Source of the DNA: Micractinium sp. NFX-FRZ
Lineage: Eukaryota > Chlorophyta > Trebouxiophyceae > Chlorellales > Chlorellaceae
NCBI GenBank assembly: GCA_029339195.1
Contig: JAPTJF010000029.1
Location: 1-64,000 of the forward strand
Length of the DNA: 64,000 nt
Direction: 5' to 3'
A program made the translations under genes and the position numbers. The notes beneath the pieces were generated by a model. It worked only from the letters and a program-made list of their open reading frames with translations. It was not told the DNA's origin and made no database searches. Of the stretch, positions 14,601-22,976 are shown piece by piece (the first letter of the stretch is position 1; the number at the start of each line of letters is the position of its first letter).

Positions 14601-17600
14601 CCCCAATTTTTCGTTCTTGCCCGTCTAGCTCAGTCGGTAGAGCGCAAGGCTCTTAACCTTGTGGTCGTCGGTTCGAGCCCGACGGTGGGCGCACGTTTTG
14701 TCCCCCGTCTGGAGGAAGGGGCGCTCAAGGCAGGATGCGTGTACCTGTCCTCACTGCCGCCCTCTTTGCCATCTCCTTTGCAGGGGCTGGGATGCGCGCG
14801 CCCCCATTCTGTGCTTCATTGGCCCGCCGGGGGTGGGCAAGACGTCGCTGGCGCGCTCCATCGCAGGTCAGGAGGCTGGGGGTGCTGAGGATCTCTTAGA
14901 GTCATATTGGCCGCTCAACTCGCGTGGCCGCACATCTGCCCATGCATAGTAAGTATCATGGTCCAACTCACATGCTGCCCGCTTCCCCGCTGTGCAGAGG
15001 TGCTGGGTCGCCCCTTCCAGCGCATCAGCCTAGGCGGCGTGCGCGACGAGGCCGAGATTCGGGGGCACCGTCGCACATACATCGGCGCCATGCCAGGTCA
15101 GCGTCGTGCGGTGTGCGATAACGGGTGTGCCGCCGCCGCCTTTGCCCCGTCAGTCATCCAACGCTGTGTGCCTGTTCCCACTGGCGCCACGCCCCCTCCC
15201 CCACAACCTCCTCCGGACCTCCCTGCCTGTATTGATGAGCACAAGGCCACCTATTCGGGCCGTGCGCAAGGCCCCTCTTCTTGCCTGCCCCCGTATCCTC
15301 CAACCTCCCCTTCCGTCATTGTTCCCTTCCCGCCCACAGGCCGCCTCATCCAGGCGGTGCGCAAGGCGGGGGTGCGTGACCCGCTGCTGCTTTTAGATGA
15401 GGTGGACAAGATGGGGAGGGATGCCCGGGGGGATCCGGCGGCTGCACTGCTCGAGGTGAGCGGGGGACACGGGAGGGAAGAGGGGACCTGACCCCTGGCT
15501 GCTGCCGGCTCGAAAGATGACCGTTGTGGGCATGAGGGCGGGCGCATGGGTGGAGGCAGGCGAAGTTTCGAGGGCGCATAAAGGGCGACGTATGAGAGCA
15601 GTCTTTACACGGGTGCCGTGGCAGGCCTGTCGCACAGCTCTGCTCTGTCCGTGGCGCTGTTGTGCGTGGGTGATTGCAGCCATGCCCACCCCTCCACCCA
15701 ACAGCAGTGCAGTGCCTTCCCTGCCTGCCCCGCCAGCCGCCGGTCCCGCCCCCGCCGCGCCCCTACAGTTCTGTGCCCAAAGCACACCAAGCCCTTGCTG
15801 CATCCCTGCCTCCTTTCTTGCCTGACCACTGCGTTTCTGGGCCTGCTCTGATCTGACCCCTGCACAGGTTCTGGACCCTGAGCAGAACGGGTCCTTTGTG
15901 GACACCTACCTGGGCCTGGTGGGTGGTCTGGGGTGTTGTCTTTGGGCGGGAGGACGGATGTGGGGGGAGGGGTTGTTGTTCAAAGAGCGTGGCGCTTGGC
16001 TGGGGTGGGGTGGGAGGCTGGGTGGGTGGACAGGTTCTGGCGGGGTGGGGCCTGGCTCCACTTTGCTGGCAGCACCAGCAAGCAGATGGTGGGAACACCG
16101 GGCGCACAAATGCAGCGCCCCCCTCCCCTCAGTCTTTCCAGCCGTGCAGCCTCAGCGCCTTGCCGCCCTGCCCTCTTGCTGCCCCCCTCCACTCTCTGCC
16201 CTTGTTTCTTCCACCATCCTGTGCTGCCCTCCTCCCCCTGCAGCATGCACGAGCGCCGTCACCCCTCCCCCTCCTGTCTCATTCATTCTCCCCCTCCTGT
16301 CTCATCTCTCCGGCGCCCTCTCGCCTCTGGTCCTGCTTCCTGTGCAACCTCCCACCATCTCCACCCTGCCCTCCTCCTCCCCCGCAGCCCTTTGACCTCT
16401 CCTCCGCCCTGTTTGTGGCCACCGCCAACCGGGCCGGCGACATCCCGGCGCCGCTGCTGGATCGGCTGGAGGTGGTGCAGCTGGGGGGCTACACGCTGGA
16501 TGAGAAGGTGGGGTGGGGGATAGACTCGAAATGGTTAACAATTGGAGGATGTGTGTGGGGGGGGCAGTTGGGGCGCCTACTGTGCCGGTTGGTGCAGGTC
16601 TTGCCGACAGCTGGGAGGGGGCAAGGGGGCAGGCGGAAAGGGCACGGGTAGCAGGCTGGAAGGGCTGCCGTCCTGCAGAAGTAGAAGCGAGCCTGTGAAC
16701 GTTGTGTTTGCTGCTCAGTGCTCAATGCATTGCACTGCTCTTCCGCTGCCGACCACGTCTTGCACCTAGTAACAATAGTCTACATTGCGACCCACCTGTG
16801 TGCTGCAGGTGCACATTGCGGAGCGCCACCTCATCCCGCGCCTGCTGGCCGACCACGGCCTCCACCAAGGGCAGCTCATCTTCCCGCCAGGTGGCTCGGG
16901 GGGTCCTGTATGCCTATGTGTGGTTGAGTAAATACCTGGGATAGTGGTTCGGGGAGCTGCATGGGACTGCACCAAGGGCAGCTCGTCTTCCCGTCCAGCT
17001 ATTGGGGGCCTGGTGCAGCTGCGGATCGACAACCTCGGGTGCCGCGGCAACTGCCTGGGACGCGCCTGGGCTCTGCTGGTGCGCTGCACAGGTGGCTGCT
17101 GGCTGCTGGCTGTCGCGGCGCTGCCCGACTGCCTGCGCCCGGCCTGCTCGCTTGGCCCCCTGCCCAATCTCTGTGTCAGCAGCTGGGAGATGGCCTCGCT
17201 GCCGCTCTGCTGCCCCGGTGGCCAGCCTGCCCCTCGGGCCTGCCTTGCTCCTTCCCTCCTTCACCTCTGCCTATCCCCTCTTACCCTGCCTGCCTCACTC
17301 CCTGCCCTTGGCACCATCCGAACCGCATGAACTGTCCCTCCATGCCGGCCTCCTTGCTGTGCAACAGCGCAATGCAAGCCTTCCCCCGTCAGGGAGGAGC
17401 ACGCCTAGCGTGCGCACGCTCCACACCACCGCAACCTTCCCCCCACCCCTTCCCCCTCTGTTGATCCGGCTGCCATGCCTGCAGGCGCCGTGCGCACCAT
17501 CATTGAAGGCTACACCGGCGAGGCGGGCGTGCGCAGCCTGTCGCGCTGCCTGGCCGCCGTGTGCCGCCACGTGGCGGTGCAGGTTGTGCAGTACCAAGAG

Positions 17601-20600
17601 CAGTACCCAGACCAGGGAGGCAGTGGGGACAGCGGGGCAGCTGATGCTGATGCCCCTCCATTGCTGGGCGGCGGCGAGGGCAGGCGTCCTGGCAGCAGCA
17701 AAGACCCACTTGGGCCTCCGCCGCTGCCACCTCTGCAAGAGGCGTCAGCAGCAGCAGCAGGGGCTGGCATGCCAGGCCCGATGCTGGCGGCCCTGCGCAG
17801 CGCAGCCAGCAGCAACCGCAGGCAGCCTGGTGGCAGCAGCAGCGCTGGCAGCGGCAGCAACGCCGGCGCCGACGGCCTGCAGCTACCGGGGGAGGGCCCC
17901 CTCACGGGTGCAGGCAGCGTGCGCCTGTGGGCAAACCTGCTGCCGCTGGCAGGGCTTGAGCGGGACGGCAGTGCATCGATGGCCGGCATTGCTGCCGTGT
18001 CCCATGCCACCGGCGGCTACCCGTGGCAGCAGCTCTCAGAGCCGGTGCACAGCAGCAGCAGCAGCAGCAGAAGCGGCGACGCAGCAGGCGCTGTTGCCGC
18101 CAAGTGCTCATGCCCCGCTCGCAAGCAGCAGGCGGGGTGGTTCAGCTGGCTGCGCTGGGCGCGCCACGACAGCTCAGCAGAGCATGCCAGCGAGCCCGCT
18201 GCTCTGGCAGCGGCCAGCGTCAGCGGCCTCAGTGCTGGCGCCACGGAGGCGGCGGCAGCGTGCACCTGTGGGGGTGGGTGCGGCGACGCCGACTGCTGCT
18301 GCCATGCCAGCACCAGCCGGGGGCTGTACACAAGCGGCCTGCCGTCTGAATGGTGGGAGCACGGGCATGCAGGCACGGCGGCAGACAGCGGGGGGTGGGA
18401 GGCGAGCTGGCGGGGCACGGCGGCAGCCTCGCACGCTTTAACGGCTGAGCCGCTGCTGTGCGGCCCTGGCAGCATGCAAATCCTGTGCCCGCCAGCGCCG
18501 ACTGCAACAGCACTGGGTGTCCCACCGCTGCCACGGCCGCTGCAGCATGGGGCGCATGCAGCGCTGCCACTAGCGGGAGCATTGGGGCAGCAGGAGGCGG
18601 AGGCGGAGGCTGGCGCTGAGCTGGCGCTGCCACCTCAGCAGCCTCAGCCGGCGGCACAGCAGCAGGTTGTTGTGGATGCCGAGCTCATTGAGGCGGTGCT
18701 GGGGCCTCGGCGCTACGAGGGGCACAACAGCGCAGGTGGGGCCTGGTGTGGGGTGGGCCTGGTGTGGGGTGGGCCTGTGTGGTGGGTGACGTCCGGTAGC
18801 GTGGGTGACTCTTTCAGCTAAGATGTGCCTGTTTGTGTGTCTGTCCTCCGTGTCCCCTGCTTGGCTGCCCTCCTCCCCGCCACCCTGCCCCCCGGCCGCG
18901 CAGCTCGCACCCTCTGTGCTCGCACACTCGCAACAGCAACCCACATCCCTCTGCCCTTCCTGACATCCCTGACCCCACCCGCCCTCCCTGCCTGCCCTTC
19001 CCCTGCAGAGCTGGTGGCGTCTCCTGGCACCGCCGCCGGCCTGGTGTGGACCTCTGTTGGCGGGAAGGTGCAATACATCGAGTGCATCTGCGTGGGTGTG
19101 GGGCGCGTCGGAAGGAACGGCCAGCTCACGCTCACAGGTGGGCCAAAAACGAGGTCAAACTTACTTGGAGTGTAAAAGCCAGCAGGACTGACGGGAGTGT
19201 GGGCGCCTCGATTGCGTTAGCGGGGAGCATGTGAGGGAGGCAGGGAGGGAGGGGTGCGCAGAGCGATGCAAGCCCAGCCAGCAGCTGACTGGCTGCCTGG
19301 GCAGAAGGGCAGGCAGCCATGCCTGCCAGCGCAGCTTTGTCCTGCCGCGTCCACTGCTTGCTCGTTCCCTCCTCACCTCCCCAGCCCCGCTTACACGGCT
19401 GCGCTGGCCAGCTGCCGCGCGCTCTAAACTGCCCTGCCCTGCCTGCTTGCCTCCCGCAGGCCAGCTGGGAGATGTGCTGGAGGAGAGCGCCCGCATTGCG
19501 CTGTCATGGGTGCGCGCGCACGCCACCGCGCTGGGCCTACCAGGCGACGCCGCCTGCCCCTCCCGCAAGTGGGACGTGCACATCCACCTACCCGCGGGTG
19601 AGTGGCTGGGGGCGCTGAGGGGTGCGCCCGCCTGCCCGCCTGCCTGCCCTCCCCGCTGGTTGTTGCGCATGCATGTGTCCATGGACAGGCAAGCGTTGTT
19701 GCGCCAATGCTGTTTGTGCAGCAGCTTGCTTGCCTGCCCTGTGGGGACACCAGCCAGCACTGCTCATGCTTCTGCTGCCAGCACTCTCCTCTGCAGCACC
19801 TGCCCTGTGCGCTGTGCATCACCTCTTATTCGCATGGTGTCTGCCCATGTGTGCGCAGGCGCCGTTCCCAAGGACGGACCCTCCGCAGGCGTCACGCTGG
19901 CGGCGGCCCTGGTGTCACTCTTCACCGGCAAGAGCGTGCGCCCGGATGTGGCCATGACAGGTGCGTTGGGGGCTTGGGCAAACTGGGCCGGATGGCCTGC
20001 TCTCAATGGCTGCCGGCAGGATGGCTGGCCCGGGTGGCGGTGCTTGTGCTCAGCACCTTGTGAAGCTCCAGCCTACTGTCCTGTTGGCCGCCGCTGCCGC
20101 CGCCACCCTGCCCTGCTGGCGTCCAGCTTGGTGGTTTGGTTGTTGCATCACATGGTGTAGGTGTACATTGGGCGGTGCAGGCAACGTGCTCGACAGTAGC
20201 TGTGCCCAAACATGCTCCATCTGCTGAGCCTGCCCGGCTACCAGTTGCTGCACTGCTGCTGGGCTCCTTATCATGCCGCGTGCACCCTGCCGCAGCCTCG
20301 CAGCCTGCAGCCACACGCTCCCGCTTCCTTGTGCTTCTCTCACGCCACGATGCCGCCGCTGGCCCTCTTCCCCTCGCAGGCGAGCTGACTCTGCGTGGCC
20401 TGGTGCTGCCAGTGGGCGGCATCAAGGAAAAGTTGCTGGCAGCGCAGGCGGCTGGCATGGCTCGCGTGCTGGTGCCCGCACGCAACATGCCGGACGTGCA
20501 GGTGAGGATCTGCCTTCTGCCCTGGCCGGTTTGCCTGCCGGCCGGCAGGCCGGCGGCCGGCTGGCCTGTTGTCGTGTTGTGCCTGCACACAAGATGCCCG

Positions 20601-22222: not shown

Positions 22223-22464
22223 CACTTGCCATGTCGAGAGGCACTTTCTGGAAACCCCGGGAAGGCAGGAAAATGCGCGGGGGGCGGTATCAAAATTTCA
22301 CTTTTGCTGGACATAGGTAGTGAAATTGTTCGACGATTCTGACACCCGTCGGTCGCATTACCCGACGATGCGTGATTGCGAGATGTCCCGAGTTCGATCC
22401 TTGGTAACTCCATCGCTAGCTTCAAGGGGTTATAGCTCAGTGGTAGAGCGCTCGCTTCGCATGA
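22223..22464. repeat. Left arm of a ~245-bp inverted repeat
   Basis: The reverse complement of this segment matches 22724-22976 with a few small differences. Both arms contain a conserved upstream block (around CGAGAGGCACTTTCTGGAAA), a GTCGG/CCGAC hairpin and a permuted tRNA-Ala gene. The spacer between arms is about 260 bp. Confidence 0.92.
22378..22462 (+). tRNA. Circularly permuted tRNA-Ala(CGC) gene, copy 1
   Basis: The 3' half lies first: anticodon-stem strand GCGAG 22378-22382, variable ATGTC, T arm CCGAG/CTTGG with loop TTCGATC, acceptor strand TAACTCC 22405-22411 and discriminator A 22412. A 13-nt intervening sequence (22413-22425) follows. Then comes the 5' half: acceptor strand GGGGTTA 22426-22432, D arm GCTC/GAGC, anticodon-stem strand CTCGC 22451-22455 and loop TTCGCA(T) with anticodon CGC at 22458-22460. 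Joined across the anticodon loop (about position 37/38), the halves give a 72-nt cloverleaf with every stem paired. It has the G3:U70 wobble that specifies alanine. The flanks CGCAT (after) and ATGCG (before) can pair, as expected for a relaxed bulge-helix-bulge splice substrate. The B box precedes the A box. Confidence 0.9.
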
Positions 22465-22490
22465 GTTTAATGTACCTTCCATGTGTATGC

Positions 22491-22494
22491 TTTT
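22491..22494 (+). terminator. Pol III T-run after permuted tRNA-Ala copy 1
   Basis: TTTT about 28 nt after the end of the 5' half on the plus strand. Confidence 0.5.
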
Positions 22495-22716: not shown

Positions 22717-22720
22717 AAAA
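22717..22720 (-). terminator. Pol III T-run after permuted tRNA-Ala copy 2
   Basis: AAAA on the plus strand is TTTT in the transcript of copy 2, about 5 nt after the end of its 5' half. Confidence 0.55.
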
Positions 22721-22723
22721 GCT

Positions 22724-22976
22724 TCATGCGAAGCGAGCGCTCTACCACTGAGCTATAACCCCTTGAAAGTAGCGATGGAGTTACCAAGGATCGAACTCGG
22801 GACATCTCGCAACCACGCATCGTCGGGTAATGCGACCGACGGGTGTCATATTCGCAGGTCAATTTCACTACCTATGTTCAGGAAAAGTGAAATTTTGCTT
22901 CCGCCCCCCCGCGAATTTTCCTGGCTTCCCGACTTTCCAGAAAGTGCCTCTCGACATGCCCGGCGATTGGCAAGTG
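22724..22976. repeat. Right arm of the ~245-bp inverted repeat
   Basis: Reverse-complement partner of 22223-22464. The tRNA ends of the arms face the spacer, so the two permuted tRNA genes are transcribed convergently. Confidence 0.92.
22726..22810 (-). tRNA. Circularly permuted tRNA-Ala(CGC) gene, copy 2
   Basis: Same arrangement as copy 1 on the minus strand. The 3' half occupies 22810-22776, with GCGAG 22810-22806, TAACTCC 22783-22777 and discriminator A 22776. The 13-nt intervening sequence is 22775-22763. The 5' half is 22762-22726, with GGGGTTA 22762-22756, CTCGC 22737-22733 and anticodon CGC inside TTCGCAT. All tRNA positions are identical to copy 1. The differences lie in the intervening sequence, the leader next to the 3' half (TGGTT against TGATT) and the trailer, which suggests selection on the tRNA itself. 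Confidence 0.9.

Follow-up and report, generated by a model that had tools for sequence, protein, structure and literature searches.

The window, a 64,000-nt stretch of contig JAPTJF010000029.1 (C29) of Micractinium sp. NFX-FRZ, very probably holds two functional nuclear genes for a circularly permuted tRNA-Ala(CGC). Both are of type II, with the junction at 37/38, and they are among the nine or more permuted loci of this genome. The case for permuted genes rests on identical halves beside diverged leaders, on covariation, on the match between leader and anticodon, and on T runs. Gene order, cloverleaf, conservation, covariation, leader complementarity, T runs and the finding of no contiguous gene were read from the sequence. 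Transcription, splicing, the formation of a circle, trimming and charging of the permuted tRNA are steps that we infer.

Copy 1 is located at 22377-22461 on the forward strand. It consists of a 36-nt tRNA 3' half (TGCGAG...CTCCA), a 13-nt linker and a 36-nt 5' half (GGGGTT...TTCGCA), the order given in the preliminary description of this DNA and confirmed here. The 3' half (22377..22412, +) comprises bases 38-73, with the 3' strand of the anticodon stem, the variable loop, the T arm, the 3' strand of the acceptor and A73. In the circular intermediate, the linker (22413..22425, +) would form the loop at the acceptor end. The 5' half (22426..22461, +) comprises bases 1-37, with the 5' strand of the acceptor, the D arm, the anticodon CGC and A37. 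Joining of the halves at 37/38 gives a 72-nt tRNA-Ala(CGC), in which all four stems are paired (7+4+5+5 bp), the anticodon loop has 7 nt and contains CGC, and A73 is present; the predicted pair G3:U70 is the alanine identity pair. The complete cloverleaf described previously is thus borne out, and ARAGORN agrees on the joined form, which it names tRNA-Ala(CGC). In the native order ARAGORN called zero tRNAs at copy 1, and Rfam at the gathering threshold, run over the window, left it undetected. The only tRNA obtained with ARAGORN and Rfam over the whole 64 kb was a conventional tRNA-Lys(CTT) at 14619-14692, one of three copies found genome-wide in a partial list of conventional tRNAs. The window has a T at both 22377 and 22462, so that two boundaries are possible for copy 1. 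The limits 22377-22461 are preferred because the paralogue on C288 has G after CGCA and T precedes GCGAG at 4/4 Ala loci. The gene was originally placed at 22378..22462; it is indeed found there, but its best limits lie one base to the left. The junction 37/38 agrees with these limits, as T38 starts the 3' half at 4/4 Ala loci and the base following A37 is variable.

A second permuted tRNA-Ala(CGC) gene, absent from the preliminary description, is located at 22811-22727 on the reverse strand. Its 3' half (22776..22811, -) and 5' half (22727..22762, -) are identical to those of copy 1 and enclose a 13-nt linker (22763..22775, -). The leader ends in CGTGGT (22812..22817, -), with the same pairing register as in copy 1, and a TTTT at 22717..22720 (-), offset by 6 nt, is a likely Pol III terminator. 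The two genes are convergent and lie in an inverted repeat. The left arm (22230..22464, +) contains the leader and gene of copy 1 plus 3 nt of trailer, and the right arm (22724..22958, -) holds copy 2; the arms are 88% complementary and spaced 259 nt. Differences between copies 1 and 2 were found at 0/72 positions of the halves, 17/148 leader columns and 2/13 linker bases (Fisher p ~0.001). Judged from the aligned copies, the differences are distributed as selection on the halves would have it, and gene conversion could contribute to this. A convergent layout is also found in a pair of permuted tRNA-Ser(AGA) genes on C25 (L080/L081) and in conventional, convergent tRNA-Ser(GCT) on C714 (L048), where the arms are 370 nt long, 100% complementary and 104 nt apart.

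The genome searched is an assembly of 66.07 Mb in 838 contigs. A DNA search with the permuted gene yielded four Ala loci, namely the two in the window (C29) and one each on C288 and C155; these genomic site counts are lower bounds. The halves are identical at 4/4 loci, and the linkers are 13, 13, 10 and 8 nt long. The joined 72-mer had no contiguous copy in the 66-Mb assembly. Its matches were the halves at the four Ala loci and, with 85% identity, a conventional tRNA-Ala(AGC) on C281. A conventional gene for a tRNA-Ala(CGC) of the same body sequence, which the preliminary description had set against a permuted gene, was not found in the 838-contig assembly, and given that the assembly is in pieces one could lie outside it. 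No other halves of tRNA-Ala(CGC) were found near the four Ala loci, and the window contains two 5' halves (within 3 mismatches over the first 25 bases), both in permuted genes. When the 200-nt flanks were compared, the C29 pair was similar upstream (score 112). Weak upstream similarity was found for C29a with C155 (score 17; 0/200 shuffles as high) and for C288 with C155 (score 16; 3/200), and nothing stood out in the remaining nine comparisons; downstream flanks are unlike in every pair. Four paralogues with identical halves and largely different flanks support the circularly permuted tRNA-Ala(CGC) originally proposed, which is further backed by two other isotypes permuted alike, by stems that covary across the halves and by leaders that complement their own anticodons. 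The Ala leaders on C288 and C155 have the motif CTGTCA(A/T)CAGCTG in common (L003:1455-1467, L004:1453-1465). Viral contigs scanned for the permuted Ala gene gave zero matches.

The genome yielded no fewer than nine permuted loci belonging to three isotypes (Ala CGC, four; Cys GCA, three; Ser AGA, two), which is a lower bound since only certain A-box types were searched. An ungapped search with the A box TAGCTCAGTGGTAGAGCG gave nine exact matches. Two of them are on the plastid contig C838; the other seven, at the four Ala loci and at three new loci, all fall in permuted genes. Around each new match 231-241 bases were examined, and the three loci are permuted tRNA-Cys(GCA) genes with the junction at 37/38 and linkers of 15, 14 and 37 nt. 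Their acceptor stems differ (L077 on C47, L078 on C180, L079 on C376), and each is fully paired. A class II A-box search led to two permuted tRNA-Ser(AGA) genes (L080/L081, C25:204560-205600), which are convergent, have a 6-nt linker and are identical across the first 214 bases compared (leader and gene). For the Ser genes the basis was reading by eye and script, as the covariance model R1 described below is one of class I tRNAs. ARAGORN named 5/5 distinct joined sequences as expected. It misses the permuted genes when they are not joined, as does Rfam (applied to the window).

With a joined Cys query, the sole matches were the query's own halves at C47, and neither of the remaining Cys loci was detected; the DNA search is therefore insensitive, and a conventional tRNA-Cys gene may exist. 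Seven candidate sites with 2-3 mismatches were scanned with R1 and contained no permuted tRNA (0/7; best score 15.7 bits). A concatenated query of nine plant tRNAs matched one site, on C838, and an initiator-Met A-box pattern gave 417 sites vs 145 in the control; neither result is informative. The 3 sites of an Asn/Ile-type A box are all on C837/C838. These two contigs are taken to be mitochondrial/plastid, C838 on account of rps2 and C837 presumably so from its tRNA set. The rps2 product of C838 shares 84% identity with its chloroplast counterpart in Chlorella vulgaris and 79% with the one in C. variabilis, in agreement with a Chlorella-like trebouxiophyte. Identities with further proteins reach 97%; comparison of the plastid gene with plasmids gave one short irrelevant match. 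Scoring with RF00005 covered 63 of 639 candidates, and the list of conventional tRNAs is therefore partial.

R1 was built from 12 rearranged, length-equalised tRNAs of the alga. It detects copy 1 with 69.4 bits and an E value of 1.5e-19 over the 64 kb, which is the outcome of the permutation-aware search suggested in the preliminary description; the score of an Ala locus is not independent, as the Ala(CGC) halves make up one of the 12 model rows. The four Ala loci score 68.4-70.6 bits and the three Cys loci, which are outside the model and thus independent of it, 60.7-62.5 bits. Apart from these loci, no match in the window and the 32 scanned loci exceeded 30.7 bits, the score of half of a conventional tRNA. 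In the Ala gene and the three Cys genes taken together, 84/84 pair cells are standard and 10/21 pairs are changed on both sides. None of 500 shuffles was as good, a control that is coarse since it involves four sequences only. When five 5' halves were crossed with five 3' halves (25 combinations), 12/12 pairs of the acceptor and anticodon stems were obtained only in the five own pairs. ARAGORN accepts 5/5 own and 7/20 crossed pairs, mismatches being tolerated, and its call alone is therefore no proof.

In 13/14 cells over seven loci, leader bases -5 and -6 can form Watson-Crick pairs with bases 34 and 35 of the anticodon. The loci counted were Ala C29a, C288 and C155, Cys C47, C180 and C376, and Ser C25a; the near-duplicates C29b and C25b were excluded. 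Fourteen alternative leader registers gave 1-6 complementary cells of 14. The 14 cells are not independent, because loci of the same isotype are paralogues, and the true contrast is thus between isotypes. The Ala and Cys leaders differ at both -5 and -6, matching the change of anticodon. The pairing of -5/-6 with bases 34/35 is common to all Ala and Cys loci, and Ser retains just base 35. The leader of copy 1 ends in CGTGAT (22371..22376, +), of which CGTGnn is kept at 4/4 Ala loci. Here -6/-5 pair with anticodon bases 35/34, and a splice motif of hBH type would have -2/-1 plus T38 as its 3-nt bulge. In the exact geometry of the bulge-helix motif, -2, -1 and base 38 are the 3-nt bulge; the observed register is the one expected if these bases take that position. 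The hBH-type motif is present at the junction in relaxed form, with no full 4-bp helix. In the Ala genes U33 is opposite U at -4, in the Cys genes base 32/-3 is unpaired, and in the Ser genes pairs are formed at 32 and 35 only. The pairing of ATGCG with CGCAT proposed in the preliminary description is the same register extended; it is full at the two window copies, but the outer pairs are not found in full elsewhere. An hBH bulge-helix motif of permuted tRNA genes has been described (PMC3978253).

TTTT starts 0-15 nt past the 5' half at 8/9 permuted loci (7/8 when the identical Ser copies are merged), and it occurs at 1.4% of window positions. Among conventional nuclear tRNAs, 15/20 have a close TTTT (one tRNA had just 2 nt of sequence downstream). 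Copy 1 is the sole exception of the nine loci. Its first TTTT (22491..22494, +) has an offset of 29 and would be a weak or distant Pol III terminator; a nearer T run at 22466-22468 is only TTT. Unconstrained folds of seven precursors resemble shuffled sequences in energy (z -1.24 to 0.71). Clearly at 2/7 (copy 2 and C155) and nearly at C47, the best fold is the swapped cloverleaf; the other four, copy 1 among them, fold differently, and precursor folding is neither for nor against the gene. Hairpins in the leaders, striking by eye, did not surpass shuffled sequences (8 leaders, z -1.66 to 1.59) and were rejected. An AT-rich box about 90 nt upstream was noticed by eye at three Ala flanks; no common upstream promoter of the permuted genes was established.

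In the proposed mechanism, RNA polymerase III would transcribe the leader, then the 3' half, the linker and the 5' half, with termination at the T run. The transcript would fold with the acceptor hairpin closed across the linker, and the leader would pair with the anticodon loop to give the relaxed bulge-helix (hBH) motif. The tRNA-splicing endonuclease would cut ahead of T38 and behind A37, and tRNA ligase would join the cut ends, closing the RNA into a circle in which the anticodon loop is normal. The linker would then be excised by RNase P and tRNase Z, and CCA would be added. Splicing to a circle and trimming by RNase P and tRNase Z we infer by analogy.

Several other explanations were considered. 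It is very unlikely that the loci are pseudogenes or rearrangement debris, i.e., unexpressed halves swapped by recombination. Such debris would agree with several features of copy 1, which has no close TTTT (offset 29), is missed by ARAGORN and Rfam and does not fold freely into the swapped cloverleaf; the function of the genes is here read from DNA. However, four loci have identical halves beside diverged leaders, stems covary across the halves, leader-anticodon complementarity is kept in Ala and Cys, and T runs are found at 8/9 loci, all of which argue for functional permuted genes. The position of the halves speaks against a split tRNA, in which separate half transcripts would be joined in trans and the proximity would be incidental. 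At 9/9 loci the 3' half stands 6-37 nt ahead of the 5' half on the same strand, TTTT comes after the 5' half, and among five distinct genes only own halves match fully. Although the leader-anticodon helix could form between two molecules as well, and the linker is without conservation, a split tRNA is considered highly improbable. A split tRNA encoded by separate loci fails, the halves being 6-37 nt apart at 9/9 loci.

A conventional intron-containing gene also fails, as no 5' half was found upstream of the 3' half on the same strand. A related explanation takes the loci as the remnant of a tandem pair of conventional tRNA genes with introns, in which the outer halves either remain in use or have decayed. 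Duplication with subsequent loss of the outer halves is one published origin model (PMC3978253). As a description of the present-day state, however, the remnant has no better prospects than the split tRNA: no further half is found near 4/4 Ala loci, and the two 5' halves of the window (3 mismatches or fewer, first 25 bases) are both permuted. The most remote of the explanations is a tRNA-derived, SINE-like repeat that carries both halves by chance. Several dispersed copies, two of them in an inverted repeat, would suit such an element, but four genomic sites were found (a lower bound), and the 200-nt flanks are unlike downstream and little alike upstream save in the C29 pair. The Cys copies, unlike decaying repeats, have compensatory changes.

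Permuted tRNA genes are known but rare, and the lineage of this alga is only just reported to have them. In 2014, 34 permuted tRNA genes were tabulated, type II with junction 37/38 being usual in green algae (PMC3978253). The isotypes in Table 1 of that paper include Cys(GCA) and Ser(AGA), and not Ala(CGC). The genes of prasinophytes (Ostreococcus, Micromonas; Maruyama et al. 2010, via PMC3978253) are like those of the alga in being nuclear, mostly of type II 37/38 and provided with the hBH motif. Prasinophytes share permuted Cys(GCA) and Ser(AGA) with the alga, and their type II linkers are 11-64 bp long (PMC3978253). In the green-alga rows of the tabulation an isotype appears once per species and junction type (PMC3978253), whereas Ala(CGC) is found four times and Cys(GCA) three times here. 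The permuted tRNA genes of red algae (2007, via PMC3978253) likewise have the 3' half first and include an alanine tRNA, and a circular intermediate was detected in red algae. The red-algal alanine tRNA has the anticodon TGC, its junction is of type IV (59/60) and its linker has 8 bp (PMC3978253), whereas the tRNA of the alga is CGC and type II. Permuted Ser(AGA) is also present in the nucleomorphs of Bigelowiella natans and Amorphochlora amoebiformis (PMC4494063), and in B. natans it is of type II, as in the alga. A nucleomorph, in contrast, is the remnant nucleus of a secondary endosymbiont, and only Ser(AGA) and Ser(CGA) were reported there in the account consulted (PMC4494063).

Permuted tRNA genes were reported in 2025 for Auxenochlorella UTEX 250-A (Plant Cell koaf259, PMC12636532; preprint PMC12633428), a Chlorella-type alga of the Chlorellaceae, Trebouxiophyceae. 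The statement in the preliminary description that none had been described in such an alga is therefore outdated. The likeness to Auxenochlorella lies in the presence of permuted genes in a Chlorella-type alga and does not extend to a comparison of isotypes and mechanism (PMC12636532). The initial tRNAscan-SE set of Auxenochlorella was incomplete, and the permuted genes were found afterwards (PMC12636532). Since ARAGORN and Rfam also miss the genes described here, algal tRNA sets are probably undercounted. In the open-licence literature, as covered by titles, abstracts and text passages, no other reports of permuted tRNA genes in Chlorella, trebouxiophytes or Parachlorella were found, nor an earlier permuted Ala(CGC) or four copies of one permuted tRNA.

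A wider interpretation is tentative and stands at less than even chances. The permuted genes might be the sole nuclear source of tRNA-Cys(GCA), Ala(CGC) and Ser(AGA), and cytosolic cysteine decoding would hence need a circular RNA intermediate. The shared Cys and Ser isotypes would then predate the prasinophyte/trebouxiophyte split, and the permuted genes of this alga would have multiplied to give dispersed families, kept uniform by selection or conversion. The presence of permuted Cys and Ser in common with prasinophytes bears on the question of ancient vs repeated origin. With several permuted isotypes and paralogues in one genome, the splice rule becomes readable from the covariation of leader and anticodon, and the alga allows a direct test of the dependence of the cell on circular tRNA precursors.

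Other features were observed in the genome and the window. The nuclear tRNA-Phe, Ile(AAT) and Arg(TCG) (L037, L043, L038) have an unusual, longer 3' side of the D arm, GTAGCG or GAGAGCG vs GAGCG. A Pfam scan that covered 20 of the 40 long ORFs of the window identified Lon-type protease exons (Lon_lid, Lon_C) at 17475-20160, which is upstream of the permuted genes. A Lon exon matched nine relatives at 43-49%.
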